Both the position numbers and the translations under genes were made by a program. The notes beneath the pieces are model-generated. The model made no database searches, was not told where the DNA came from, and saw nothing but the letters and a program-made list of their open reading frames with translations. A stretch of DNA of 12,021 nt from Pseudomonadota bacterium (GTDB lineage: Bacteria > Myxococcota > Polyangia > Polyangiales > Polyangiaceae), in NCBI GenBank assembly GCA_023419055.1, contig JAEZYO010000606.1, positions 1 through 12,021 of the forward strand, written 5' to 3'. How positions within the stretch are numbered: position 1 is the first letter of the stretch; each line of letters opens with the position of its first letter. Below, piece by piece: positions 1 to 12,021 of this stretch.

Positions 1-1143
1 GCCAACCAGGCCCATGTCCTGGAGGCTTTGCTCGCGCTCGGGGTCGCCACGCGCGCCGAGCTCGCCAAAGCGACCGCCATGAGCCAGCCGACCGCGGGCA
101 AGATCGTGGACGAGCTCATCAGCGCGCGCGTGATCGAAGAGCTCACGAACGACGAGACGCGCCCGTCCGGCGTCGGGCGACCCGGCAAGCAGCTCCGGCT
201 AGCTCGCGGTGAACCGCGTTTCGTCTTGATCGAGCTCGGCGTCGAACGCACGCGCCTGCTCGCGGCGCCGCTCGCGCCGAGCCAAGAAGAGCGCTGGGAC
301 GTGGAGTTCGAGACTCCGGCGAGCGAAGCGGGTTGGCTCGAGGAGCTCGAGAAGCATGCGCGCCACCTGCGTTCCGGCAAGTGCTCCGGCGTCGTCATGA
401 GCGTCCCCGGGATGATCGACGAACGGACCGGCAACATCTTGCTCTGCCCCAACTTGCACTGGGCGGAGGGGGTGAGCCTCGGTGAGCGCTTGCGGGATCT
501 GTTCGGCGCGCGCGTGGAGCTCTTGCAGGAGGTCCAGGCGCTCTCGCTCGGACAGCTCGCAGAGCGCCCCACCGAACAGGACTTTTTGCTCGTCGACGTC
601 GGTGAAGGTATCGGCGGTTCGATCGTGCTCGGAGGGAAGCCCTTTCAGGGCCCCCAGCCGTTCGCGGGCGAGCTCGGCCACACGCCGATCCCCGGCAACA
701 CGCGCCCTTGCGGCTGTGGCGGGAGCGGCTGCCTGGAGACGCTGATCGCGGAGCCACACCTGTTGCAGGCGTTCCGTTCCGCAGCGGGCGAGCCCGAGCT
801 CTCGCTCGGTGATCTCGAGCGCGTGCTCGATCATGGCGAGCCGCCGCGCTGGCTCGCCGAGGCCCTGGACGCGACAGCCATGTGTGTCGTGGGGTCGCTC
901 AACGTGTTCGGGCTCGCTCGCGTGGTCTTGACCGGCGCGCTCGGGCGCCTGCCCGAGCCGGCGCGCCAGCGGCTCGCCTCGACGATCGAAGGCTCGGCGC
1001 TCTGGAGCCGCTTCGACCGCGTGCGCGTCGAGTTCGCGCCGCGCCGGCGAGCGCGTGGTCTCGGGATGGCGGCGTTCCAGCGCATCGTGGTCCCGACCGA
1101 CTGGGCTCGCAGCAGCCTGAGCCCGGGCAAAGCCTCGGCGTAG
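1..1143 (+). CDS. ROK-family transcriptional regulator, 5' partial
   Basis: The reading frame is already open at base 1, so the true start lies upstream; about 380 residues are visible. The N-terminal ~60 residues form a winged helix-turn-helix like that of NagC/Mlc/XylR repressors (RAELAKATAMSQPTAGKIVD, then a basic wing near RPSGVGRPGK). A ROK sugar-kinase fold follows. The ROK signature is clear at ~191-245 (VDVGEGIGGSIVLGG, AGELGHTPI, then CGCGGSGCLE), including the His and three Cys that bind structural zinc in this family. The kinase parts are degraded: the N-terminal phosphate loop reads ELGVERTRL instead of a D-x-G-G-T type motif, and the catalytic N-D-x-N motif reads Q-E-V-Q (bases 526-537). 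It is therefore probably a sugar- or sugar-phosphate-responsive DNA-binding regulator, not a kinase; the ligand cannot be deduced. It is followed 53 bp later by argC, with no obvious functional link. Confidence 0.88.
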   Translation, partial: ANQAHVLEALLALGVATRAELAKATAMSQPTAGKIVDELISARVIEELTNDETRPSGVGRPGKQLRLARGEPRFVLIELGVERTRLLAAPLAPSQEERWDVEFETPASEAGWLEELEKHARHLRSGKCSGVVMSVPGMIDERTGNILLCPNLHWAEGVSLGERLRDLFGARVELLQEVQALSLGQLAERPTEQDFLLVDVGEGIGGSIVLGGKPFQGPQPFAGELGHTPIPGNTRPCGCGGSGCLETLIAEPHLLQAFRSAAGEPELSLGDLERVLDHGEPPRWLAEALDATAMCVVGSLNVFGLARVVLTGALGRLPEPARQRLASTIEGSALWSRFDRVRVEFAPRRRARGLGMAAFQRIVVPTDWARSSLSPGKASA

Positions 1144-1160
1144 GCGACCTCGCGCCCGGC

Positions 1161-1190
1161 TTCGCAGCCCGCGAGCCCGAGGGTCATACT
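1161..1190 (+). promoter_or_regulatory. possible argC promoter (weak)
   Basis: A sigma-70-like pair sits in the 53-bp gap before argC: TTCGCA at 1161-1166 (4 of 6 matches to TTGACA) and CATACT at 1185-1190 (4 of 6 to TATAAT), separated by 18 bp. Initiation about 7 bases downstream would fall on the argC ATG itself, implying a leaderless or nearly leaderless message. Such matches are frequent by chance, so this is only a candidate. Confidence 0.22.
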
Positions 1191-1196
1191 AGGGGG

Positions 1197-2246
1197 ATGA
1201 AGCGGTTCAAGGCCACGGTCATGGGCGGTTCCGGGTTCGCCGGCGCGGAGCTCGTGCGGCGCCTGCTCTTGCATCCCGACGTCGAGCTCGTGCGCGTCGG
1301 CGCGGCGGATCACGTGGGCGAGCCGTTGAGCTCTGCCCTGCCCCACCTCGAGGGGCTCACCGAGCTCGCGTTCGAGAACCTGTCGCCCCGCGAAGCTGCC
1401 CGCGACGTCGACGTCGTGCTCATGGGGTTACCTCACAAGGCGAGCGTCGAGCTGGTCGAAGCCGCGATCGAGACCGGAGTGCGCGTCATCGATCTCTCGG
1501 GCGCGTTCCGGCTGAAGGATCCCGAAGCGTATCGTCGCTTCTACGGTGAGGCGCACTCGCGCCCGGACCTCTTGGGAGAGTTCGTGTACGGCCTCCCCGA
1601 GCTCAACCGCGAGCGGCTAAAGGGCGCGCGCTGGGTCGCGTCGCCCGGCTGCTTCGCGACGTGCATCGAGCTCGGACTCCTCCCGTTCGCGCGAGCCGGG
1701 CTACTCGCTGGTCCGATCCATACCGTGGGGGTGACGGGATCGAGCGGGAGCGGCGTGACGCCGACCCCGACCACGCACCACCCCGTACGCGCGGTGAACC
1801 TCCGGACCTACAAGCCGCTCGACCACCAGCACGTGCCGGAGATCGAGCGAGTGGTCCGCGAGGCGGGCGCGACCGATCCTCTGCTCTCCTTCATTCCCGT
1901 ATCCGCGCCGCTGACGCGCGGGATCTTCGCGACGTCGTTCTTCGAGGTGCCGGACAGCGTCGCTCCTGAGGCCCTATCGGAAACGCTCGCCGCCGCCTAC
2001 CGGCACGAGCGCTTCATACGCGTCCCGAAGAAGCGACAACCGGAGGTGGTCGCGGTGGCGGGCTCGAACTACGCGGAGGTGGGTCTCGTCGCGGGGGAGG
2101 TCCGCGAGGGCCGGCGGGTGGTCAGCGTGTTCTCGGCGCTCGACAACCTGATCAAGGGGGGCGCGGGTCAGGCGATCCAGAACATGAACTTGATGCTGGG
2201 TTTGCCCGAGCACACGACGCTCGAAGATCCCGGCGGTTACCCCTAG
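1197..2246 (+). CDS. argC: N-acetyl-gamma-glutamyl-phosphate reductase
   Basis: ArgC carries out the NADPH-dependent reduction of N-acetylglutamyl-5-phosphate to the semialdehyde, the third step of arginine (ornithine) biosynthesis, in the cytoplasm. The 349 residues match the usual length of about 345. Visible motifs: the NADP-binding loop GGSGFAGAELVRRLLLHPDVE (10-30), LPHKAS (79-83), DLSGAFRLKDP (99-109), the catalytic-cysteine segment ASPGCFAT with Cys152, GVTGSSGSG (178-186), DHQHVPEIE with the likely catalytic His212, PLTRGIFATSF (238-248) and the C-terminal DNLIKGGAGQAIQNMNLMLG (316-335). The ATG at 1197 is chosen because only eight residues precede the dinucleotide-binding loop, as is normal. 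The frame stays open further upstream, but that part overlaps the ROK gene. The purine-rich AGGGGG abuts the ATG too closely to be a good ribosome-binding site. No other arg gene is in the window; the gene converges with a minus-strand gene 2 bp away. Confidence 0.97.
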   Translation: MKRFKATVMGGSGFAGAELVRRLLLHPDVELVRVGAADHVGEPLSSALPHLEGLTELAFENLSPREAARDVDVVLMGLPHKASVELVEAAIETGVRVIDLSGAFRLKDPEAYRRFYGEAHSRPDLLGEFVYGLPELNRERLKGARWVASPGCFATCIELGLLPFARAGLLAGPIHTVGVTGSSGSGVTPTPTTHHPVRAVNLRTYKPLDHQHVPEIERVVREAGATDPLLSFIPVSAPLTRGIFATSFFEVPDSVAPEALSETLAAAYRHERFIRVPKKRQPEVVAVAGSNYAEVGLVAGEVREGRRVVSVFSALDNLIKGGAGQAIQNMNLMLGLPEHTTLEDPGGYP

Positions 2247-2248
2247 CG

Positions 2249-4546
2249 TCACGGAGCGAGGCAGCGCTCGCCGAAGCTCGTCAGGCCTTCGCGTTGGGCC
2301 GAGCTCAGCTCGGGCAGCTTCAAGAGGTCACCGAGGACGCTCTTGGCCTTCTCCCGGTCACGGAGCGCGCAAGCCACGGTCAGGCGGTTGCGGAGCGCTT
2401 CTCGACGCACGCTTCCGATCGGCACGGGGCGCTCGAGCGCGAGGTCGAGGTGGTGCGCCGCCTCGAGGTAACGCCCCCGCAGCATCAGATTGCGGCCGAT
2501 CAGGTACGACGACACCCCCTGGTCCGGCTCGCGCTCGCCCCAGAGCCCGAGCAGCGGCGCGGCGACGTCCCAAGAGGCGCCGAGCTCCGAGTCGCCCACC
2601 AGAAGCGTGGAGACGGCCTCGTAGGCGAGCCCTTCGCGCGCCCAGCGCTTGACGTCGAGCGTCCTCGAGCGCCCCTCGTCGAAGACCACGCGACTCGCCT
2701 CCGCGTAAAGCTTTTCGGCCTCGTCCGTGCGGCGATCGGCGAACTCGAGATCACCCGCGGCCTCGAGCGCGGACGCCTGCTCGATCTTGGAAAGGTCCTT
2801 CGACGTCGAGAGCTCGATGAACCTCCGCCAGGCTTCCCTTTCGTCCCCCTGTCGCTTGGCGCAGTTCGCGAGTCCGAAATGAGCGCCCGTGTGGTGTCGA
2901 TCGAGCCGCAAGACCTCGCGGTAGCGCTCGGCGGCCTCCTTCCAGTCGCCGACCGAGAGCCGCTGTTCGGCCTGACCGTAGAGGCGATCGACGATGCGCG
3001 GGCAGCGGCGCGCGAAGAAGGCCGGTCGATCGAAGCGCGCTCGCGCGGTCTCGAGCGATTTCTCGGGGAGCGGAAGCCTCCTCAGATCGGCGAGGAAATC
3101 GCGCTCGAGCGCGGCGAGATCTTTGCCCCCGGTGAGCGACGCGAGGTCGGCGCCGCCGTACCACGCGCGCACCTTGGGCATACCGAAGCGCTCAGCGAAC
3201 CAGTTCACGAAGCTGCCGGCCACCGTGTAGGCGCGCGAGGACGGCTGCCCGAGGAAGCCGAGGCGAAAGAGCCGCTCGAGCTCGGGCAAAAGCTCGAGCC
3301 GCTGCATGGCGGCTGCCCACTCGAGGCTCGTGAGCTCCTCGTCTTCGTCCGGCGCCGCGGCGACGGCGATCCCCTCGATACGCCCGGGATCCGGGATCCA
3401 GCCGCCGAGGGGGCCGGCGACCTTGAACGGCCCCTCTCCGAAGCGCCCCGCGATCACGTGCGCGAGCTCGTGCCGAACGACCGGATGCGGGTACGACGAC
3501 TGTTGGAGGTACACCTCCTCGCGCCAGGGCTTCGCGATGTACGTGCGTGACGCGCCCATCAAGCGTCCCTTCTCCGCGTCGGAGGCGAAGAGGTAGACCT
3601 TGATCTTGTCGGGCCCCCGAACGCCGAAGTAGCGCTCGAGCTGAACCACCTGAGCGTCGCAGTCCTTCACGAAGAGATGCAGGTCGCGCTCGAGGATCAC
3701 GCTCGAGTACACGACGTCGCAGCGCTTGCCGCTGCTGCGGCGACCGAGCGCCTCTTCGATCGAGCGACTGGTCGAGTAGTGTCCGAGCTCGGGGCCGTGC
3801 GCGGAGTGGACCAGGCTCGCCACGAGCGCGCCCGCCCCCAAGACGAACAGCCCAGGGCGGCCGATCCAGCGGAATTTCGGACGACTCTGGGGGTCGAGCT
3901 CGAGGTGCTCCGCAAGCGCGAGCGCAAAAACGAGCGTGGCCGCCGATCCGATTCGATACGTGACGAGCGACAAAAACGGATCGATGACGGTGTCGTAGAG
4001 CGGCCCGGAGAAGTACCCGAAGAAAGGGTCGAACGCGAAGACCATCGGGCTCGTGTAGAAGCGAACCAGGCTCACGACGATGCCGCCGAGGGGCCCCGCG
4101 AGCGCCAGAACGACGGCAGCGGTGCGACGCTGCCAGCGCTTCTTCACCCGCGCAGCCGCGAAGCCGACCAGCGTGCCCCACGCCGCGCCGACGAGCGCAC
4201 CGCAGGCGGGCCCGAGCAAGAACAGCCACAGGCCCTCGCCGGGATCACAGAACCCGACGCGGACGCCGTGGAGAAGGAGAAGCAAGAAGCCGATGCCAGC
4301 GAACAGCGCCGCGCTGGCGAGGCTCTCGGCGAGCGCTCGGGCAGGCGCGACCGGCTTCGACGCGACGGCGAGCGCCGCCGCGATGGCGCCCGCGGCGGGC
4401 AGCACTACTCCGGCCAAGAGCGCCGCTTCGTAGCCGGGCCCGCCGAACTGCGGCAGAAACCCGCTCGCGCCGAGCAGCAGGGCGACGACGAGCGCCGTCG
4501 CCCTCCGGGGGGTCCCGAGCTTCACGCTCGGGGTCCCGAGCTTCAC
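2249..4546 (-). CDS. multi-pass membrane protein with gluzincin-type HExxH metallopeptidase domain and TPRs
   Basis: This 765-residue protein has three parts. Residues ~16-248 contain about seven hydrophobic segments (near 16-32, 40-62, 72-93, 105-131, 142-162, 198-213, 232-248). Residues ~275-490 resemble the peptidase-MA/gluzincin group: HELAH at 359-363 supplies two zinc ligands and the catalytic Glu360, IEGIA gives a probable third ligand Glu391, and AYTVAGSFVNWFAERFG (439-455) matches the helix that follows in this group. Residues ~517-765 are TPR-like, clearest at 521-580 and 680-705. Positively charged loops (N-terminus, 64-70, 133-141, 222-230) suggest N-in and an odd number of spans, placing the peptidase and TPR part outside the cytoplasm. 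That is an inference. The GTG start at 4546 overlaps the lon stop (GTGA), with GGAG ten bases upstream. A second in-frame GTG lies at 4525 in a 21-bp duplicate. The substrate is unknown; I recognise no named family member. Confidence 0.8.
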   Translation of the reverse strand: MKLGTPSVKLGTPRRATALVVALLLGASGFLPQFGGPGYEAALLAGVVLPAAGAIAAALAVASKPVAPARALAESLASAALFAGIGFLLLLLHGVRVGFCDPGEGLWLFLLGPACGALVGAAWGTLVGFAAARVKKRWQRRTAAVVLALAGPLGGIVVSLVRFYTSPMVFAFDPFFGYFSGPLYDTVIDPFLSLVTYRIGSAATLVFALALAEHLELDPQSRPKFRWIGRPGLFVLGAGALVASLVHSAHGPELGHYSTSRSIEEALGRRSSGKRCDVVYSSVILERDLHLFVKDCDAQVVQLERYFGVRGPDKIKVYLFASDAEKGRLMGASRTYIAKPWREEVYLQQSSYPHPVVRHELAHVIAGRFGEGPFKVAGPLGGWIPDPGRIEGIAVAAAPDEDEELTSLEWAAAMQRLELLPELERLFRLGFLGQPSSRAYTVAGSFVNWFAERFGMPKVRAWYGGADLASLTGGKDLAALERDFLADLRRLPLPEKSLETARARFDRPAFFARRCPRIVDRLYGQAEQRLSVGDWKEAAERYREVLRLDRHHTGAHFGLANCAKRQGDEREAWRRFIELSTSKDLSKIEQASALEAAGDLEFADRRTDEAEKLYAEASRVVFDEGRSRTLDVKRWAREGLAYEAVSTLLVGDSELGASWDVAAPLLGLWGEREPDQGVSSYLIGRNLMLRGRYLEAAHHLDLALERPVPIGSVRREALRNRLTVACALRDREKAKSVLGDLLKLPELSSAQREGLTSFGERCLAP

Positions 4547-4550
4547 GCCC
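4509..4550. repeat. 21-bp tandem duplication over a stop/start junction
   Basis: Two adjacent 21-bp units (4509-4529 and 4530-4550) are identical at 20 of 21 positions. Read on the minus strand, each carries GTGAAGCTCGGGACCCC and adds seven codons, so the membrane peptidase begins MKLGTPS-VKLGTPR. Each copy contains a GTG that could serve as a start. In the copy proximal to lon, GTGA overlaps the lon TGA stop. Confidence 0.95.
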
Positions 4551-6945
4551 TGACTTCTCCGCTCGGTGCAGGAGTCAGCTGATCATCGTCCTCGGCGTCA
4601 CCCGACTCGGGCTCGGCGAGCACGAGCGGGAGCACCTCGTCCACGCGGTTTACCAGCGTAATGTCGATGTCGTTCCGGACTTCGGCCGGGACTTCCTCGA
4701 CCTCGACGCGGTTCTTTGCCGGGACGATCACCTTGCGCACGCCGGCGCGGTGCGCGGCCAGGATCTTGTCCTTCAGGCCCGGAACCGCGAGCACGTTCCC
4801 GCGCAGGGTGATCTCTCCGGTCACCGCCACGTCCGGGCGGCACGGCGCGCGAAGCAGGAGCGACGCCACGGCGACGAACATCGGCAAGCCGGCGTAGGCC
4901 GCGTCGCGTGCGTGCCCGCCGCGCGGCACGTGGAGGTGGAGGTCGATGGCCTTGAGCCACTCCGGATCCAGCCCCAGCCGGTCCGCTCGCGAGCGCACGA
5001 ACGAGACCGCGGTGGCAGCCGACTCCTTCATCACGTTGCGCATGCTGCCGGTGATGAAGATCTCGCCCTTACCCGGCATCTTCGTCGCTTCGACGATCAT
5101 GAGATCGCCGCCGCTGCTCGAGAAGGAGAGCCCGACCGCGACGCCGGGAGACAGGCGCCGCTCCGCGATCTCCGGGTGATAATGCTCCGGGCCGAGCAGC
5201 TCGCGCACGAGCTCGGCCGTGACGGCGAGCCCCTGGATGGTGCGCCCCTCCGCGAGCTTGACCGTGATGTCGCGGCAGACCGCGGCGATCTCGCGCTCGA
5301 GGTTCCTGACGCCCGCTTCGCGCGTATAGAAATCGACGATGGCCTCGATGCCTTCGCGTTCGAAGCGGACCTGCTCCGGGGAGAGGCCGTGCTCCTTGAG
5401 CTGCTTCGGCACCAGGAACTTCTCCGCGATGGAGCGCTTCTCGGTGCGCGTGTAGCCGGGCACCTCGATGATCTCCATGCGGTCCCGGAGCGGATCGGGG
5501 ATCTGATCCCGGTAGTTTGCGGTGGCCAGGAACATGATCTCCGAGAGATCGAACGGCACGTCGATGTAGTGGTCGACGAAGGTGTCGTTCTGTGCCGGAT
5601 CCAAGACCTCGAGGAGGGCCGCCGCGGGATCGCCCCGCATGTCGACGCCCATCTTGTCGACCTCGTCGAGCACCAGCACCGGGTTCTTGCAGCCGACCTT
5701 CTTCAGCGCCTGGATGATGCGGCCCGGGAGGGCGCCGACGTACGTGCGGCGGTGCCCCCTCACCTCGGCCTCGTCGCGCACTCCGCCGAGCGAGATGCGC
5801 CCGTAGCGGCGGCCCATGGCGCGCGCGATGCTGCGCCCGAGCGAGGTCTTGCCGACACCGGGGGGCCCCACGAAGAGCAGGATCGGCCCCTTTTTGTCCC
5901 GGCGGAGCTGGCGGATGGCGCAGTACTCGACGATCCGGCGCTTGACCTGCTCGAGGCCGTAGTGGTCCTCGTCGAGGCAGCGCTGGACCTCGCGCACGTC
6001 GATGCGATCCGGCGTGATCCGCGCCCAGGGCAGGTCCGAGAGCCACTCCACGTAGGTGCGGGTGACCTGATACTCCGCCGACTGCGGCTGCATGCCGGAG
6101 AGGCGAGCGAGCTGCTTCTTCGCGACCTTCTCGGCGTCGAGGGGGAGCTCCGCGCGCGAGATGCGATCACGGAGCTGTTCGATCTCGTCGTCCTCCGCGG
6201 CCTCGCCGAGCTCTTCGCGGATGGTGCGCATTTGCTGCCGCAGCACGTACTCGCGCTGCGAGCGGCTCATCTCGGTCTGCACCAGGTTCGAGATCTCGTC
6301 CTTGACGCGCAGCACCTCGAGCTGGCGCTCCACCATCGAGAGCACGAGCTCCACGCGCTTGCGCACGTCGAAGGCCTCGAGGATCCGCTGGCGAGCGGCG
6401 ATGCCCGCCTGCTCCTCCGGGAAGTTCGACGCGATGAGATCGGCGAGCGCGCCCGGCTCCCGAACGTTGTCGAGGATGCTCGCGGTCTCCTTCGGCAGGT
6501 TCGGCATCAGGTTCAGCACCTGGCGCGTGCTCTCGCGCAGGCGCTGGCCGAGCTCGCCGAGCTCGAGCGTGCCCTCGGGTTCGGCGACGCGCTGAACGTC
6601 GGCGCGCATGTACGGCTCGAGACCCTGAGGCTCGAGCAGCCTGAAGCGACCGAGACCGTTCAGCACGACGCTGTAGTTCGAGGGGCCGAGGCGGATGACC
6701 TTCACCACCCGCGCCAGCGTCCCGACGTCGTAGAGATCGGCGAACGTGGGCTCGACCGTCTCCGGATTTTTCTGCGTCACGACCCCGAGCAGAGCGCTCT
6801 CTGTCCCGACCAGCTCTTCGACGAGCCGCACCGAGCGTGGGCGACCCACGTTGATGGGCACCACGGACATCGGAAACAACACCGAGTTACGAAGCGGGAG
6901 GATCGCGATCCGTTCTGGATGCGACGCGCCTTCTGAGCCGCGCAT
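4543..6945 (-). CDS. lon: Lon-type AAA+ protein (LonA architecture) lacking the catalytic serine
   Basis: The 800 residues have full LonA architecture: N-terminal LON domain (~12-200, ILPLRNSVLFPMSVVPINVG), helical region (~200-320), AAA+ module (~325-580) and Lon-protease domain (~595-776), plus an acidic tail. The ATPase looks functional: Walker A GPPGVGKT (360-367), Walker B LVLDEVDKMG (Asp427/Glu428), aromatic pore loop RTYVGALPG (Tyr402), DRMEII Arg region and the TREAGVRNLER sensor-2 segment. The protease site is not: the usual D-G-P-S-A-G reads D-A-A-Y-A-G, with Tyr684 (codon TAC, 4896-4894) in the place of E. coli Ser679. Lys727 in GLKDK keeps the exact 43-residue spacing to Ser679/Lys722 and is intact. 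No Ser or Thr lies close by. It may be an unfoldase, chaperone or DNA-binding Lon without Ser-Lys proteolysis. The ATG at 6945 is preferred because the LON domain begins just after it; the frame remains open up to 7083, but that part is not Lon-like and overlaps the divergent gene. The downstream membrane peptidase overlaps by 4 bp. Confidence 0.93.
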   Translation of the reverse strand: MRGSEGASHPERIAILPLRNSVLFPMSVVPINVGRPRSVRLVEELVGTESALLGVVTQKNPETVEPTFADLYDVGTLARVVKVIRLGPSNYSVVLNGLGRFRLLEPQGLEPYMRADVQRVAEPEGTLELGELGQRLRESTRQVLNLMPNLPKETASILDNVREPGALADLIASNFPEEQAGIAARQRILEAFDVRKRVELVLSMVERQLEVLRVKDEISNLVQTEMSRSQREYVLRQQMRTIREELGEAAEDDEIEQLRDRISRAELPLDAEKVAKKQLARLSGMQPQSAEYQVTRTYVEWLSDLPWARITPDRIDVREVQRCLDEDHYGLEQVKRRIVEYCAIRQLRRDKKGPILLFVGPPGVGKTSLGRSIARAMGRRYGRISLGGVRDEAEVRGHRRTYVGALPGRIIQALKKVGCKNPVLVLDEVDKMGVDMRGDPAAALLEVLDPAQNDTFVDHYIDVPFDLSEIMFLATANYRDQIPDPLRDRMEIIEVPGYTRTEKRSIAEKFLVPKQLKEHGLSPEQVRFEREGIEAIVDFYTREAGVRNLEREIAAVCRDITVKLAEGRTIQGLAVTAELVRELLGPEHYHPEIAERRLSPGVAVGLSFSSSGGDLMIVEATKMPGKGEIFITGSMRNVMKESAATAVSFVRSRADRLGLDPEWLKAIDLHLHVPRGGHARDAAYAGLPMFVAVASLLLRAPCRPDVAVTGEITLRGNVLAVPGLKDKILAAHRAGVRKVIVPAKNRVEVEEVPAEVRNDIDITLVNRVDEVLPLVLAEPESGDAEDDDQLTPAPSGEVRA

Positions 6946-7025
6946 AGCTCTCACAGTAGTACGGTTGCTTGGGACGTCCAGGTCTTGAAGTCGCTCTGTT
7001 TCCGGGCCTGTGGTAAGTCGGGCGC
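6946..7025. promoter_or_regulatory. divergent intergenic region between lon-like gene and lipoprotein gene
   Basis: These 80 bp must hold promoters for both directions if neither gene is read from elsewhere. I see an 8-bp palindrome GGACGTCC (6972-6979) and a TTGAAG hexamer on the plus strand (6985-6990), but no well-spaced -10 for it. No CIRCE inverted repeat and no complete heat-shock sigma-32-type promoter are apparent on the lon strand. Confidence 0.35.
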
Positions 7026-7727
7026 ATGCGATGGGTCGCGCCGTCTCCCACCCGGGCCGCTCTGCCCTGGGTCTTGTCCGCACTGCTCTCGACGGGCGCG
7101 CTCGCTTGCGCTTCTGCCAGAACCGGTGAAAACCCCGATCGTGTGCTCAGCGCCTACTCCAGCGCCATTCGGGAAGGCCGGGCGGCTGACGCCTACGCCC
7201 TACTGAGTGACGAAGCCAAAAAGAGCATTCCTTTCGAGTCCTTCCAGAGGATCCTTCGAGACAATCCTGATGAGGTGCGTGAGCTCTCGCAGTCGCTCGA
7301 CCGGCGCTCCGGACCACCCCGAGTGACCGCAACGGTCACCGCGCCCAACGGCCAGAGCGTGCTCCTCGTCTACGAGGCCGGGGCGTGGCGCGTCGACGGG
7401 TCCGCCATCGATCTCTACAGCCAGGCAACCCCCGAGGCTACGGTGCTCGCGTTCGTCCGCGCGTTCGAAAATCGACGCTACGACGTGCTGTTGCGATTCG
7501 TTCCGGACTCCGAGCGGGCAGGCCTCGACGCCGAACACTTACGCAAGGCCTGGGAGGAAGGCGAACAGCGGGCCGAGCTCGAGCGCCTGACGCAAGCGCT
7601 CAGGGCGGCGCTCCCCACCGCGCGCTTCGAAGTGCTGGGCGAGCGCGCGACGATGGCCTACGGAGCCGGCGGGACGGTCGAGCTCGTTCGTGAGCACGGC
7701 CTCTGGAAGCTCGAGGATCTCAAGTGA
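7026..7727 (+). CDS. predicted lipoprotein with two NTF2-like repeats, unknown function
   Basis: The 233-residue protein starts with a basic and hydrophobic signal peptide ending in the lipobox ALAC (Cys28), so it is probably exported and lipid-anchored. The mature part appears to be an internal duplication. Repeat 1 (~37-125) runs from DRVLSAYSSAIREGRAADAY through LLVYEAGAWRVDG. Repeat 2 (~136-231) runs from EATVLAFVRAFENRRYDVLL through VELVREHGLWKLED. The pattern of an N-terminal helix with 'A.REGR..DAY.LL', then a closing strand 'G.W.ld', is typical of NTF2-like folds such as DUF4878/SnoaL-like lipoproteins. This is a fold-level guess. No catalytic residues are recognisable. The start is the only reasonable ATG in frame ahead of the signal peptide; its ribosome-binding site is weak. 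The stop overlaps the hisB start by 4 bp, so the two genes are co-transcribed and probably translationally coupled. Confidence 0.8.
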   Translation: MRWVAPSPTRAALPWVLSALLSTGALACASARTGENPDRVLSAYSSAIREGRAADAYALLSDEAKKSIPFESFQRILRDNPDEVRELSQSLDRRSGPPRVTATVTAPNGQSVLLVYEAGAWRVDGSAIDLYSQATPEATVLAFVRAFENRRYDVLLRFVPDSERAGLDAEHLRKAWEEGEQRAELERLTQALRAALPTARFEVLGERATMAYGAGGTVELVREHGLWKLEDLK

Positions 7728-8326
7728 CTGACCGCAAGAACAGAACCGCCGAGGTGCACCGGAAGACGCGCGAGACCGACATTCGCGTGGCGATCGATCT
7801 CGACGGGACCGGCAAGAGCTCGATCAAGACGCCGATCCCCTTCCTCTCGCACATGCTCGATCAGATCGGCCGCCACGGCTCGTTCGACCTCACGATCGAG
7901 GCGGAAGGCGACGTCGAGATCGACGGGCATCACACCACCGAGGACATCGGCATCGTGCTCGGGAGCGCCGTCCTTCAAGCGCTCGGGGACCGGAGCGGTA
8001 TCCGTCGTTACGGGTCGGCGACGCTCCCGATGGATGAGGCGCTGGTGACGGCGGCGCTCGACCTCTCGGGGCGTCCGTTCTTCGTCTGGAAGGTGCCCTT
8101 GCCGAAGGCGAAGCTCGGCGACTGGGACGTGGAGCTCGCGGAAGTGTTCTTCGAAGCCTTCGCGCGGACCGCGCAAGCGAACCTTCACGTGGTGCTGCAC
8201 GCCGGACAGAACTTGCACCACATCGTCGAAATCAGCTTCAAAGCGTTTTCTCGCGCCCTCCGCGAAGCGACCGAGATGGACCCGCGCGCCGGAGGGATCC
8301 CCTCGACCAAGGGGATGCTGGTGTGA
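7724..8326 (+). CDS. hisB: imidazoleglycerol-phosphate dehydratase (monofunctional HisB)
   Basis: It dehydrates imidazole-glycerol phosphate to imidazole-acetol phosphate in histidine biosynthesis, using manganese in the cytoplasm. At 200 residues it is the monofunctional form, with no phosphatase domain. Diagnostic motifs: FLSHMLDQIGRHG (40-52), DGHHTTEDIGI (67-77), MDEALV (103-108), and NLHHIVEISFKAFSRALREA (163-182) ending with DPR and PSTKGML. The His and Glu residues of the two HH-x2-E motifs are the metal ligands. The usual FLDHML reads FLSHML here. The start is GTG at 7724, overlapping the upstream TGA as GTGA, and is supported by GAGGA at 7713-7717, six bases upstream. A terminator-like hairpin lies between this gene and hisA. 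Confidence 0.97.
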   Translation: MTDRKNRTAEVHRKTRETDIRVAIDLDGTGKSSIKTPIPFLSHMLDQIGRHGSFDLTIEAEGDVEIDGHHTTEDIGIVLGSAVLQALGDRSGIRRYGSATLPMDEALVTAALDLSGRPFFVWKVPLPKAKLGDWDVELAEVFFEAFARTAQANLHVVLHAGQNLHHIVEISFKAFSRALREATEMDPRAGGIPSTKGMLV

Positions 8327-8327
8327 G

Positions 8328-8353
8328 CGGGCCTTGCCCGGTGCCCCGGCCCG
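8328..8353 (+). other. GC-rich hairpins directly after hisB with mutually exclusive pairings
   Basis: Immediately after the hisB stop, CGGGC (8328-8332) can pair with GCCCG (8336-8340) around a 3-base loop. The same left arm extended to CGGGCC (8328-8333) can instead pair with GGCCCG (8348-8353). There is no U tract. This may be a processing or pause hairpin, or a chance product of high GC. Confidence 0.3.
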
Positions 8354-8385
8354 GCTCGGCTTCCCCTAAAAATCCAGGCGAACTG

Positions 8386-8410
8386 GCTCCGCACGTTGCG
8401 GAGCTTTCTT
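8386..8410 (+). terminator. intrinsic-terminator-like hairpin between hisB and hisA
   Basis: GCTCCGCA (8386-8393) pairs perfectly over 8 bp with TGCGGAGC (8397-8404) around a CGT loop and is followed at once by TTTCTT (8405-8410). On the opposite strand the hairpin has no T tract, so it is directed to the plus strand. It could end transcription from the lipoprotein-hisB unit or attenuate entry into hisA. No short His-rich leader peptide is visible in the 117-bp gap. Confidence 0.72.
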
Positions 8411-8443
8411 CGCGACTGACAGAGCGGTATTTCGGATAGACCC

Positions 8444-9175
8444 ATGGAGATCATTCCGGCCATCGACCTGCTCGAGGGCAAAGCGGTACGTCTGCGCCAA
8501 GGGCGCTACGAAGAGGTGACGGTGTACTCGGACAATCCACCGGTGCTCGCGGCCGGCTGGAGCGGACGAGTGAAGCGCGTGCACGTCGTCGATCTGGAGG
8601 GCGCTCGCGCGGGAAAGCCCGTGCAAGGTGAGCTCGTTCGGCGCATCGTCGCCGCGTTCGGCTCCGGCGTGCAAGTCGGCGGCGGAGTGCGCTCGATGGC
8701 GGCGGTGGACGCCTACTTCGCGCTCGGAGTGGATCGGGTCGTGCTCGGCACCGCAGCGCTCCGCGATCCGGAGCTCGTCCGCACCGCGGCTCGCGCTTAC
8801 CCCGGACGGGTGATCGTCGCGGTGGACGCCCGCGGCGGGCGCGTCGCGACCGACGGCTGGCTCGATCAGTCGGAGAAGCTTGCGCTCGAGCTCGTCCGAG
8901 AGCTCGCCGACAGCGGACTCGCAGCCGTCCTCTACACGGACATCGAGCGTGACGGGACCGAGGTCGGGCCGAACGTCACGGAGACCGCGAACCTGGCGCG
9001 CGACGGCGGGCTGCCCGTCATCGCGAGCGGCGGCGTCGGCAAGCTCGAGCACCTCTCGGCGCTTTCGCTGAACCCCGGCGTCGTCGGCGCGATCCTCGGG
9101 AAGGCGCTCCACGAGAAACGCTTCACGCTCGAAGAAGCGGCGAGCGCCGCGAGCGGCAACCCGCCCCGGAGCTGA
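8444..9175 (+). CDS. hisA: phosphoribosylformimino-5-aminoimidazole carboxamide ribotide isomerase
   Basis: It performs the Amadori-type isomerisation of ProFAR to PRFAR in histidine biosynthesis. The 243 residues form a typical HisA TIM barrel of normal length. Visible motifs: IIPAIDLLEGKAVRLRQG with catalytic base Asp8, VHVVDLEGA (46-54), VQVGGGVRS (76-84; phosphate-binding), the mid-barrel Asp128 in IVAVDARGG, YTDIERDGTEVGPN (164-177) with the second catalytic-type Asp166, and VIASGGVG (192-199; second phosphate site). The TDIxRDGT motif favours HisA over the related HisF. The ATG at 8444 is preceded by GGATAG, a modest ribosome-binding site. hisH is missing from its usual place before hisA and hisF does not follow it, so this is a split his locus. 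The downstream gene starts 2 bp after the stop. Confidence 0.97.
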   Translation: MEIIPAIDLLEGKAVRLRQGRYEEVTVYSDNPPVLAAGWSGRVKRVHVVDLEGARAGKPVQGELVRRIVAAFGSGVQVGGGVRSMAAVDAYFALGVDRVVLGTAALRDPELVRTAARAYPGRVIVAVDARGGRVATDGWLDQSEKLALELVRELADSGLAAVLYTDIERDGTEVGPNVTETANLARDGGLPVIASGGVGKLEHLSALSLNPGVVGAILGKALHEKRFTLEEAASAASGNPPRS

Positions 9176-9177
9176 CC

Positions 9178-10692
9178 ATGGTGGAGTCGCGTGAGCCCCG
9201 CGATCCAACGGACGCGCTCTCGAGAGCCGCGACGTTCGCGGTGCGCGCGGTGCCTTCCACCGATAGCGGCGAGGCGGAAGCGGAAGCGGACAGCGTCGGC
9301 CAGCCCGGCGGTGAGGACTTCCTCTTCCACCTCTACCGAGGCAGCGAGCTCCTTCAGGACAACTGCGTCGAAGAGGCCAAGGAGGAGCTCGAGCGCGCGC
9401 TCCGCATGCAGCCGCGCGACATCGAGGGTCAGGGGCTGCTCGGGGTCGTCTACTTCAGGCTCGGGCTCTACCCGCGGGCGATCGAGATTTACGAGGAGAT
9501 CATCCGCGGAGTCCCGAACGACATCACGCCGCGCGTCAACCTCGGGCTTTGCTACCTGAAGACGGGCCAGTACGCCCCGGCGCGCGCCGCGCTCGAAGAG
9601 GTGATCCGGCGAGAGCCTCAACACACGCGAGCCTGGGGCTACCTCGGGCTCATCTTCGAGCGCTTGGGCGAGTACCCGAAGGCCCAGGCCGCGTTCGAGC
9701 GGGCGAGCCAGCCGCAGCTCGCTCGACGCATGCAGCAGCTGGTCGAGGAGCTCACCCACTCGCATGCGCAGTCGCCGAGCGAGCCACCGGAGCAGCAGGA
9801 GGTTCGCCGAGCGGCGGCCGATGCCGTGGACGAGCTCAACGCCGAGGAAGATGCCGCGTTTTCGCGCGCCGATCCGCGTGCCTCGCTGGATCCTTCACGC
9901 TCCGGGCGCTGGCGCGCGCTCGAGCCGGGCGAGGAACAGCTGCCGCCCCTCTCTCGAGCACCCCGCCGTCCTTCGATGGTGGGCCGGTTCGGCCCGGCCG
10001 TGCCTTCGGTTCCTCCTCCCGCCGAGCTCGGTGAACGGCAGGCGCCGCTGCGCTCCTTGCCTCCCTCGTCACTGGTGCAGGCCTCCGAGCTGATTCCGCC
10101 GACGCCCGGGATGCGCGTCACCTTGCCGAGGCCGGGCGCGGTCGTGGTTCGGGTGGAGGTCGGGTTCGCTCTCCGTCGCTCCGCCCTGCTGGCGCTCAGC
10201 CACGACCAGAAGCCCTTCCGGCGCCTCGATCTCAAGCGCCGCGCCCGCGGACGAGAAACCGAGGAGCCCTTCGGCGGCGGTGGCGAGTGGTCCTCGTTGG
10301 AAGGCGCCGGCTTTCTCACGCTCACGGCGGAACGCGATCACGTCGTGACCGTGTTCGATCTGGCCGGCGAATTCGTCTACGTGCGGGAGAGCGCGCTGCT
10401 CGGGTTCGACTCCTCGGCTCGCTACGAGAACGGTCGGCTCCCGGGCACGCTCGGGGTTCAGGTACCGGTAGTGCAGTTTTCGGGAAATGGCCTCGTTCTG
10501 GTGGAGAGCGAGCGGCGGCCGTCCTCCCTGGTCGTGAGCGCCGAGCGGCCCCTGATGCTGCGCAACGAACGGGTCCTTGGTTGGACCGGACGGCTCCTGG
10601 CGCACGCCGTCGAGCAAGATTCCTCCCCGACGCAGGCGCCTGGTTTCGTTTCGTTTGCCGGCGACGGCGCGGTTCTGCTCGACGTCGGTTAG
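9178..10692 (+). CDS. TPR protein with C-terminal AIM24-like beta domain
   Basis: This 504-residue, probably cytoplasmic protein has no signal peptide or membrane span. Four TPR-like units fill ~47-178 (for example EEAKEELERALRMQPRDIEG, ITPRVNLGLCYLKTGQYAPA, RAWGYLGLIFERLGEYPKAQ). A Pro/Ser/Glu/Arg-rich, presumably disordered linker spans ~190-310. Residues ~318-502 look like a beta-rich AIM24 (DUF124/TIGR00266-type) domain: GAGFLTLTAERDHVVTVFDL, the segment EFVYVRESALLGFDSS, and VLGWTGRLL near the end. The AIM24 assignment is by pattern only and is less certain than the TPRs. The role is unknown; TPRs suggest a protein-binding scaffold. The ATG at 9178 has GGAG at 9168-9171 within the end of hisA. 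With a 2-bp gap, this implies co-expression with hisA. No terminator hairpin is visible after its stop. Confidence 0.75.
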   Translation: MVESREPRDPTDALSRAATFAVRAVPSTDSGEAEAEADSVGQPGGEDFLFHLYRGSELLQDNCVEEAKEELERALRMQPRDIEGQGLLGVVYFRLGLYPRAIEIYEEIIRGVPNDITPRVNLGLCYLKTGQYAPARAALEEVIRREPQHTRAWGYLGLIFERLGEYPKAQAAFERASQPQLARRMQQLVEELTHSHAQSPSEPPEQQEVRRAAADAVDELNAEEDAAFSRADPRASLDPSRSGRWRALEPGEEQLPPLSRAPRRPSMVGRFGPAVPSVPPPAELGERQAPLRSLPPSSLVQASELIPPTPGMRVTLPRPGAVVVRVEVGFALRRSALLALSHDQKPFRRLDLKRRARGRETEEPFGGGGEWSSLEGAGFLTLTAERDHVVTVFDLAGEFVYVRESALLGFDSSARYENGRLPGTLGVQVPVVQFSGNGLVLVESERRPSSLVVSAERPLMLRNERVLGWTGRLLAHAVEQDSSPTQAPGFVSFAGDGAVLLDVG

Positions 10693-10699
10693 GCTCCCT

Positions 10700-10728
10700 T
10701 TGATTTTGGGGCGGGTAGGTCCTATCTA
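10700..10728 (+). promoter_or_regulatory. candidate pgsA promoter
   Basis: TTGATT (10700-10705, 4 of 6 to consensus) and TATCTA (10723-10728) lie 17 bp apart in a locally AT-richer gap after the TPR gene. Initiation near 10735 would give a ~50-base leader to the ATG at 10787, or a ~13-base leader to the GTG at 10748. Confidence 0.42.
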
Positions 10729-10786
10729 CTAGCCCACCTTGGAGACCGTGAAAGAAGCGCCCCTGTCCCGCCGGAGTCGGCGGCGA

Positions 10787-11422
10787 ATGTCGGCGGGCGA
10801 GCGCCGCGCCCGGAGGCGCTCTCTCCGGGAAGATGCGTTCAATCTCCCGAACCTCCTCACGATGGGCCGGGTCGCGATCATCCCGGTCGTCCTCTTGTTG
10901 CTGTCGCGTGGCTCGCCCAAGGACTGCACGCTCGCCGCCATCGTCTACTCGTGCGCCGCGATCACGGATCTGCTCGACGGCTACCTGGCGCGCCGCATGA
11001 ACATCGTGAGCGTGCTCGGCAAGTTCCTCGATCCGCTCGCCGACAAGCTCTTGGTCATGGCGTCGCTGATCTACATGGTGCCGATGGGCCGCATCCCGGC
11101 CTGGGCGGTCACTCTGCTGCTCGCCCGCGAGATCGCCGTGACCGGTCTCCGCAGCATCGCGAGCAGTGAAGGCGTGGTCATCGCGGCCGGTGACGACGGC
11201 AAGACCAAGACCGCGTTGCAGATGGTCGGCATCCTTTGCCTCATCATCGGCTACCCGTACCACCTGACGCTCGGGCCCCTCTTCGACCTAGGCGTCGTGG
11301 ACCTCGTGGTGGTGGGCCGGACGCTGGTCTACATCTCGCTCGCCTTCTCGCTTTCGAGCGCATTCGCCTACGTTCGCCTGTTCGACGCGGCCGTGGAAGC
11401 AAAAGCCGGCCGGCGGCAGTAA
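10787..11422 (+). CDS. pgsA: CDP-diacylglycerol--glycerol-3-phosphate 3-phosphatidyltransferase
   Basis: This inner-membrane enzyme makes phosphatidylglycerol phosphate from CDP-diacylglycerol and glycerol 3-phosphate, the committed step to phosphatidylglycerol and cardiolipin. It carries the complete CDP-alcohol phosphotransferase signature D-x2-D-G-x2-A-R-x8-G-x3-D-x3-D: DLLDGYLAR, then GKFLDPLADK (61-87 of 211 residues). NLPNLLTMGR at 19-28 is the usual PgsA N-terminal segment. About five hydrophobic helices are visible. PgsA is favoured over PssA or cardiolipin synthase by NLPNLLT.xR and by the MxxxxxPxxWAVTLLLARE stretch. The ATG at 10787 is chosen because GGAG (10773-10776) precedes it. 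In-frame alternatives are GTG 10748 and TTG 10739, which would add 13 or 16 residues of highly basic sequence (RRSRRR). No other lipid gene is adjacent. Confidence 0.92.
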   Translation: MSAGERRARRRSLREDAFNLPNLLTMGRVAIIPVVLLLLSRGSPKDCTLAAIVYSCAAITDLLDGYLARRMNIVSVLGKFLDPLADKLLVMASLIYMVPMGRIPAWAVTLLLAREIAVTGLRSIASSEGVVIAAGDDGKTKTALQMVGILCLIIGYPYHLTLGPLFDLGVVDLVVVGRTLVYISLAFSLSSAFAYVRLFDAAVEAKAGRRQ

Positions 11423-11489
11423 AGAACCGGGGGGGGCGCCGCCCGCCCGACTCGCCGACCGCGATAAAGTCATGGTAAGAGGCCCGGCC

Positions 11490-11879
11490 ATGGCTTCCAG
11501 AAAGCTCGTCGGCTTGTTGCTCGCGTTCGGTCTCGGCGGGGCGCTCGTTCCCGGGTGCGCCAAACAGGGCGAGGGTGACCGCTGTGACTTGCTGGCCGCG
11601 GGGAACGACGACTGCGACACGGGTCTCGTTTGCGTGTTGGCCAGCGACCTGGTCGACCAGAGCACGGATCGCTGCTGCCCGCCCGTTGGCGAGGGGTTCT
11701 CGAACTCGCGCTGCGCCCGCAGCGGCACCGTCGGGACGGGCGGGACTTCGAGCGCCGGCGGGAGTTCGGGCTCCGGTGGCAGCAGCGCCGCTGGCGCGCC
11801 TGCTTCCGAAGGCGGCGCGCCCGCTTCCGAAGGCGGCGCACCCGCTTCCGAGTCGATGAGCGGCGCAGGCGGGGCGTAA
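11490..11879 (+). CDS. small Cys-rich lipoprotein with Gly/Ser/Ala repeat tail
   Basis: The 129-residue protein has a signal peptide (MASRKLVGLLLAFGLGG) and a lipobox-like VPGC with Cys23, so it is probably lipid-anchored. The mature part has a compact domain with six cysteines (32, 42, 48, 62, 63, 75; GDRCD, NDDCDTGLVC, DRCCPP, SRC), able to form three disulfides. The 'DC..GLVC' pattern recurs in myxobacterial surface lipoproteins. A low-complexity tail (~78-129) contains three GAPASE(G/S) repeats. The ATG at 11490 is preferred over the ATG at 11472 because AAGAGG (11477-11482) is seven bases upstream and the signal peptide then has normal length. The gene sits one base from sctS, so it may be part of a secretion locus. 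The function is unknown, and confidence in coding is moderate to good. Confidence 0.75.
   Translation: MASRKLVGLLLAFGLGGALVPGCAKQGEGDRCDLLAAGNDDCDTGLVCVLASDLVDQSTDRCCPPVGEGFSNSRCARSGTVGTGGTSSAGGSSGSGGSSAAGAPASEGGAPASEGGAPASESMSGAGGA
11793..11855 (+). repeat. three tandem 21-bp coding repeats (GAPASEG)
   Basis: Units at 11793-11813, 11814-11834 and 11835-11855 each encode GAPASEG (GAPASES in the last) and differ from one another at only a few bases. They lie in the low-complexity tail of the lipoprotein. Such in-frame repeats can vary in copy number by slippage. Confidence 0.93.
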
Positions 11880-11880
11880 G

Positions 11881-12021
11881 ATGCCCTCGCTCGGGCACTT
11901 GACCGAGCTCGCCCAGAGCGCGTTGATGCTCGCGGTCGTGCTGTCGTTGCCCGTCGTCGGGCTCGCGGCGCTCATGGGGCTCCTGGTCGCGGCCTTCCAG
12001 GCCGTGACACAGCTTTCGGAT
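11881..12021 (+). CDS. sctS: type III secretion export apparatus protein SctS/FliQ family, 3' partial
   Basis: Forty-seven codons are visible before the window ends. The protein starts MPSLGHLTELAQSALMLAVV and continues through LSLPVVGLAALMGLLVAAFQ to AVTQLSD. This is the first transmembrane hairpin of the FliQ/SctS (YscS/EscS) family: a short amphipathic N-terminus, a Pro-containing helix, GL.VA..QA.TQ, then the start of the polar loop. The LSLP motif favours non-flagellar SctS over flagellar FliQ, though the fragment is too short to settle this. The full protein should be ~85-90 residues and forms part of the export gate in the inner membrane with SctR and SctT. The ATG follows the lipoprotein stop by one base (TAAG-ATG), so translation may be coupled. 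sctT/sctR or sctU homologues are expected nearby outside the window. Confidence 0.78.
   Translation, partial: MPSLGHLTELAQSALMLAVVLSLPVVGLAALMGLLVAAFQAVTQLSD

Follow-up and report, generated by a model that had tools for sequence, protein, structure and literature searches.

The catalytic residues of Escherichia coli LonA, Ser679 and Lys722, have been replaced in the laboratory; the S679A and K722A proteins, in which the ATPase side is kept and the dyad is broken, are described as proteolytically inactive, and an E424Q/K722A double mutant is reported still to bind substrate. Here we describe a natural Lon in a comparable state, which in contrast to the engineered proteins is conserved and recurrent. 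It is encoded on contig JAEZYO010000606.1 (assembly GCA_023419055.1), of which the whole stretch analysed, positions 1 to 12,021 (12,021 nucleotides), is referred to as the window. The organism belongs to the Polyangia, which are mostly uncultured soil bacteria.

Other known systems show partial likeness to this protein. RadA and BrxL have a Lon-like fold without the dyad (RadA has Ala and Arg at the two positions, according to a figure legend, and BrxL has no obvious Lon active-site motif and binds DNA), but they are other ATPase types or chains and work on DNA. LonC (MtaLonC) is a Lon relative that has lost one of the two activities; the canonical AAA+ motifs and the ATPase are gone and the dyad is kept. 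The nearest parallel in another family is that of the plant FtsHi pseudo-proteases, AAA+ proteases that have lost the peptidase motif and remain necessary to the organism (PMC8197885); they belong, however, to the FtsH metalloprotease family and are membrane-anchored chloroplast proteins, whereas the window protein is a bacterial LonA that appears soluble from its sequence. These statements on known systems are drawn from published sources (PMC10164562, PMC11612176, PMC11825663, PMC2605481, PMC3391209, PMC11986505, PMC5512693). The original prediction knew of no LonA subfamily of the kind described below, and the literature searched, which did not extend to most subscription papers, yielded no account of a LonA subfamily that is protease-dead by nature; one survey counts 2 inactive homologues among 117 Lon-family proteins.

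The window Lon and its peptidase site

The lon gene lies on the reverse strand at 4543..6945 and encodes 800 amino acids from an ATG at 6945, as identified from the open reading frame, Pfam and TIGR00763. The open frame extends to a GTG at 7083 (4543-7083, 846 amino acids), but the ATG is the likely start, 800 amino acids also being the length of the close relatives P0001 and P0002. LON_substr_bdg, AAA, Lon_lid and Lon_C domains follow in one chain, and the protein scores 864 bits against the LonA model TIGR00763 (cut-off 608). With the domain order, the AAA+ motifs and the protease fold of canonical LonA (E. coli Lon), its descent from LonA is clear. Membership of RadA (TIGR00416, 29.6 bits against 403), BrxL (TIGR02653, 57 against 628) and LonB (TIGR00764, 80.6 against 516.6) was rejected, as was membership of LonC, since Walker A and B are intact and the serine is absent, the reverse of how LonC is defined.

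The difference from canonical LonA lies in the peptidase site. Where D-G-P-S-A-G is expected the protein reads D-A-A-Y-A-G (4888..4905, reverse strand; residues 727-732, or 681-686 in the 800-residue numbering), and the tyrosine (Tyr730, or Tyr684; codon TAC at 4896-4894) occupies the position of E. coli Ser679. This placement, read from the translation, is given both by alignment to E. coli Lon S679A (6u5z) and by structural alignment of the predicted model with 3wu4, the protease domain of E. coli Lon (model residues 601-778 against chain residues 596-773, 177 aligned). The AlphaFold model predicts an intact protease-domain fold; its AAA+ part is weak (predicted local distance difference test, pLDDT, 71.4; predicted template modelling score, pTM, 0.40), and therefore the protease domain alone was used. 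The second dyad residue is kept: Lys773, or Lys727 in the shorter numbering (4765..4767, reverse strand; codon 4767-4765), lies 43 residues downstream of Tyr684 and corresponds to E. coli K722, the second lysine of G-L-K720-E-K722 in 6u5z numbering. The window protein thus has the lysine of the dyad and not its serine, and relatives also replace Lys722, Thr704 and other site residues.

The motor, on the other hand, appears complete. Alignment places Walker A (GPPGVGKT, 5845..5868), the Walker B region with its Asp-Glu (VLVLDEVDKM, 5650..5679) and the pore-loop tyrosine (Tyr448, or Tyr402; 5740..5742) on the reverse strand, and sensor-1 Asn, the Arg finger and sensor-2 Arg are all found. The original prediction, that a tyrosine stands in place of the catalytic serine in a Lon with correctly spaced lysine and intact Walker, pore-loop and sensor regions, is borne out in each of these respects.

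The altered motif is not private to the window. D-A-A-Y-A-G is also read in P0001 (98% identical), P0002 (97%) and P0005 (90%), and P0004 (88%) has D-A-A-Y-G-G, so that five proteins counting that of the window have tyrosine at 679; P0003 has asparagine. Among the 120 best homologues, position 679 is S in 82, G in 21, N in 10, Y in 4, D in 2 and T in 1, the residue of P0005 being doubtful in this count. Gly677Ala and Pro678Ala are common to many relatives that retain the serine, and therefore only the change of serine to tyrosine is peculiar to the subclade of the window. The serine codon is AGC in 14 of the 14 Ser-bearing relatives read and the asparagine codon is AAC in the single Asn relative read; with TAC in the window, these codons suggest that tyrosine was most likely reached through asparagine (AGC-AAC-TAC) and not by TCC-TAC.

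Erosion of the site and conservation of the motor

The paralogue was compared across the Polyangia using homologue lists that hold the best 120 of about 8000 scored proteins for three chosen queries, and therefore the proportions given are valid for these clades and not for Lon at large. Groups were assigned by us, partly by tree position; the derived group, which holds the window protein, includes all 120 of its best homologues; P0005, whose C-terminus is cut, and L025, which has no residue at position 722, were excluded before counting. The Ser-Lys dyad is gone in 96 of the 135 scored proteins of this group and D-G-P-S-A-G is found in none. A clade defined by the tree gives a similar picture: the dyad is missing from 75 of its 112 rows, and D-G-P-S-A-G does not occur. 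The 679-722 pairs of the derived group include Ser-Gln (33), Ser-Met (14), Gly-Lys (12), Asn-Gln (10), Gly-Gln (6), Tyr-Lys (4) and Ser-Arg (4), and the altered positions are Ser679, Lys722, Thr704, Gly677, Pro678 and Ala680. A second clade of the same paralogue has alanine for Ser679, with the lysine kept, in 10 of its 18 rows; in a wider list the figure is 77 of 120. Erosion of the peptidase site therefore affects at least two separate clades, and D-A-A-Y-A-G is a small part of it; the proposal of a natural dyad-less Lon with intact ATPase motifs, conserved in a clade, stands.

The controls are uniformly intact. The dyad is present in orthologues near the linked clades (29/29) and of the sister type (23/23), in two paralogue sets (20/20 and 7/7) and in a phylum sample that partly overlaps the other sets (30/30). 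The corresponding Lons of Sorangium and Polyangium aurulentum read D-G-P-S-A-G. All 13 orthologue-bearing genomes searched, which are those of relatives, also encode two or more additional Lons, full or partial, at about 42-54% identity, and in each genome at least one of these reads D-G-P-S-A-G with Lys722; the original prediction had proposed looking for such a Lon in the genome of the window itself.

Column entropy in the derived group (137 rows) places positions 679, 680 and 704 at the 78th, 92nd and 86th percentile, whereas in the canonical, sister and paralogue groups it is zero at all three. Asp676, Gly681, His665, His667 and Glu706 remain invariant or nearly so, and therefore the fold is still constrained. 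In the relatives P0241-P0278, K720 has given way to T, A, S, V, I or P (41/120) with the dyad mostly kept, a further sign of a loosened site. A third loss clade, in which the lysine would have gone first (LTQK), was considered and rejected: its members keep K722 and vary at K720, and in its list of 120 position 679 is alanine in 10 and glycine in 1.

Losses were counted on two trees. In a FastTree tree of 347 rows with the catalytic columns masked (from 485 usable of 492), 128 rows lack the dyad, requiring 27 changes by Fitch parsimony or 34 losses under an irreversible model; the redundancy filter kept near-identical rows differing at 679 or 720, so these counts may be slightly raised. The window falls within a clade of 43 rows, 43 of 43 without the dyad, most of which have glutamine at 722 whereas the subclade of the window keeps Lys722. 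An IQ-TREE tree of 141 rows, 138 of them scored (L044, P0005 and L025 excluded), has 50 without the dyad, 17 parsimony changes and 21 irreversible losses, and places the window within an 18-row clade with no dyad in any row. P0092 lies outside the derived clade in the FastTree trees and inside it in the IQ-TREE tree. Parsimony does not separate loss from regain; loss is the likelier, because sister groups carry the canonical motif.

Throughout these clades the motor is held almost constant. All 347 rows retain the pore Tyr, sensor-1 Asn, Arg finger and sensor-2 Arg; Walker A reads GPPGVGKT in 345 of them and GPPGTGKT in the other 2, and the Walker B Asp-Glu is found in 346 with one gap; outside this set GPPGVGNT and GPPGVCKT occur once each, with one Walker B Asp-Asp. 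A third Lon paralogue, L050, has GQPGVGQT as Walker A, perhaps through loss of the ATPase or an assembly fault. For the AAA+ part of five derived-group pairs the ratio of nonsynonymous to synonymous substitution rates (dN/dS) is 0.04-0.09, and for their protease domain 0.09-0.21; values up to 0.47 are seen in three pairs outside the group, and the overall span is 0.02-0.47. The ratio lies well below 1 in all three domains, in frames that are open and full-length.

A membrane protein encoded downstream of lon

Immediately downstream, on the same strand, lies a gene for a protein of 765 amino acids (2249..4546) with seven predicted transmembrane helices, a collagenase-like domain with HExxH (HELAH) and tetratricopeptide repeats (TPRs). 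Its first possible start overlaps the lon stop by four bases (GTGA, 4543..4546), a later GTG start also being possible; a short direct repeat lies at its start (4511-4546) and the protein begins VKLGTPSVKLGTP. Among the 58 loci whose sequence was usable, this partner adjoins lon on the same strand in 45; these include every one of the 15 dyad-less loci in the pairing table. The loci were picked across the tree, L202-L205 because earlier coordinates already hinted at pairing. All 13 unlinked loci have an intact D-G-P-S-A-G; six are orthologue-type and seven are distant Lons or other paralogues (L014-L018, L152, L153). The pairing persists at L012, where the his genes are not upstream of lon but elsewhere.

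All 61 aligned partners have the HExxH motif, Glu391 downstream of it and Tyr440; HExxH with a downstream Glu is the signature of gluzincin metallopeptidases. In the AlphaFold model (pLDDT 93.8) residues 189-494 are predicted to match collagenase gluzincins (8jt1_A), followed by the TPRs; the identity is 12%, and in contrast to M9-type collagenases the domain is fused to seven transmembrane helices and TPRs. Foldseek gave mainly TPR matches, and of 26 Pfam matches the 25 listed are TPR-type with stray weak ones and include no peptidase family. The helix count by hydropathy is seven in the window protein and 4 to 8 among 41 relatives, and the charge pattern, likewise from hydropathy only, puts the C-terminal part with the peptidase domain outside the cytoplasm. 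Of the 192 genomes of the class, 183 gave a match to the family, in most cases a single one; it appears to be a Polyangia-wide membrane protein that is apparently undescribed.

Upstream, at 7026-11422, a gene order divergent from lon is conserved in several relatives: a small possible lipoprotein, hisB, hisA, a TPR protein with an AIM24-like part and a pgsA-like gene. No promoter or terminator was found in a scan of 4400-7200, and a protein search of plasmid records gave no match at 60% identity or above, only lower ones.

What the altered Lon may do

From these comparisons we infer that the window Lon is inactive as a protease by the classical route, and that it and the membrane partner are functionally coupled. 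The reading we favour, with somewhat better than even confidence, is that the Polyangia paralogue has kept an ATP-driven unfolding and translocation machine and lost the Ser-Lys peptidase chemistry, probably working with the membrane partner. The hexamer would still bind proteins and unfold, thread, remodel or hold them; it would act with the partner or on the same clients, perhaps via the partner's cytoplasmic loops, since the charge pattern places the peptidase domain of the partner outside the cytoplasm. With no further need for cutting inside the Lon chamber, the active site would have drifted in lineage after lineage. The constancy of the neighbouring gene suggests that either the clients or the motor itself acts together with the membrane gluzincin or upon it.

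Several observations weigh against this reading. Lys722 is still present in the window Lon. Ser and Lys are both retained in 39 of the 135 derived-group proteins, 19 of them also with Thr704 and Ala680, and therefore the group is not uniformly dead. Of the 45 partner-linked Lons 30 keep the dyad (8 of these 30 with a non-standard motif); the pairing is therefore older than the dyad losses, and its association with them is confounded by ancestry. The partner is also found unlinked, often away from lon. Finally, its predicted topology argues against a direct hand-over of chains. A bolder form of the coupling is a split ATP-powered protease across the inner membrane, in which the dead cytoplasmic Lon would supply force and substrate choice and the seven-helix collagenase-like partner the cutting or its control, the Lon site having become dispensable and eroded many times independently. 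We regard this as doubtful; regulation through the cytoplasmic loops, or a role in extraction, is likelier because the predicted topology disfavours simple hand-over.

The strongest rival is that the dead Lon is a regulatory subunit, co-assembling with an active Lon paralogue and tuning its activity or substrate choice. The further Lon reading D-G-P-S-A-G in 13 of 13 genomes, and the conserved Lon fold and AAA+ part, speak for mixed hexamers, and a parallel arrangement is suggested for FtsHi with FtsH12; but the paralogues are only about 42-54% identical and mixed hexamers leave the partner gene unexplained. This appears an unlikely alternative, if a serious one.

Two further possibilities are clearly less probable, and about equally so. 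The dead Lon domain could be a ring scaffold on DNA, making the protein a nucleic-acid or DNA-linked regulator in the manner of RadA or BrxL, in which the dyad is likewise absent; against this, the full LonA architecture is kept, with the protein-binding N-domain and pore tyrosine, and the adjoining gene encodes a membrane protein. Alternatively the protein may still be a protease in which a different residue or a changed mechanism takes the place of Ser679, or cutting may persist as the function, as the Ser-Lys relatives would suggest. The near invariance of Asp676, Gly681 and the two histidines and glutamate listed above is consistent with this, but Ser, Lys and Thr704 have changed to many chemically unlike residues and no replacement nucleophile is conserved.

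That the gene is under relaxed selection and about to be lost is more improbable again: the peptidase-site columns are among the more variable of the derived group, yet the frames are full-length under constraint in every domain, the AAA+ residues are almost invariant clade-wide and the partner pairing is retained. A sequencing or assembly error at TAC 4896-4894, in favour of which nothing was found, is ruled out because four further proteins in the database, 88-98% identical, also have tyrosine, with asparagine in P0003, although the earlier argument from three changes in one motif carries no force by itself, Gly677Ala and Pro678Ala being features of the clade.

Unfolding and cutting share one chain in Lon, and a lineage that has dropped the cutting would directly test which Lon functions need proteolysis. 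If the favoured reading is true, natural substrate-trapping Lons would become available, and the paralogue would mirror LonC and stand to LonA as the FtsHi pseudo-proteases stand to FtsH. An uncharacterised family of metallopeptidase-like membrane proteins is also indicated as the likely partner.
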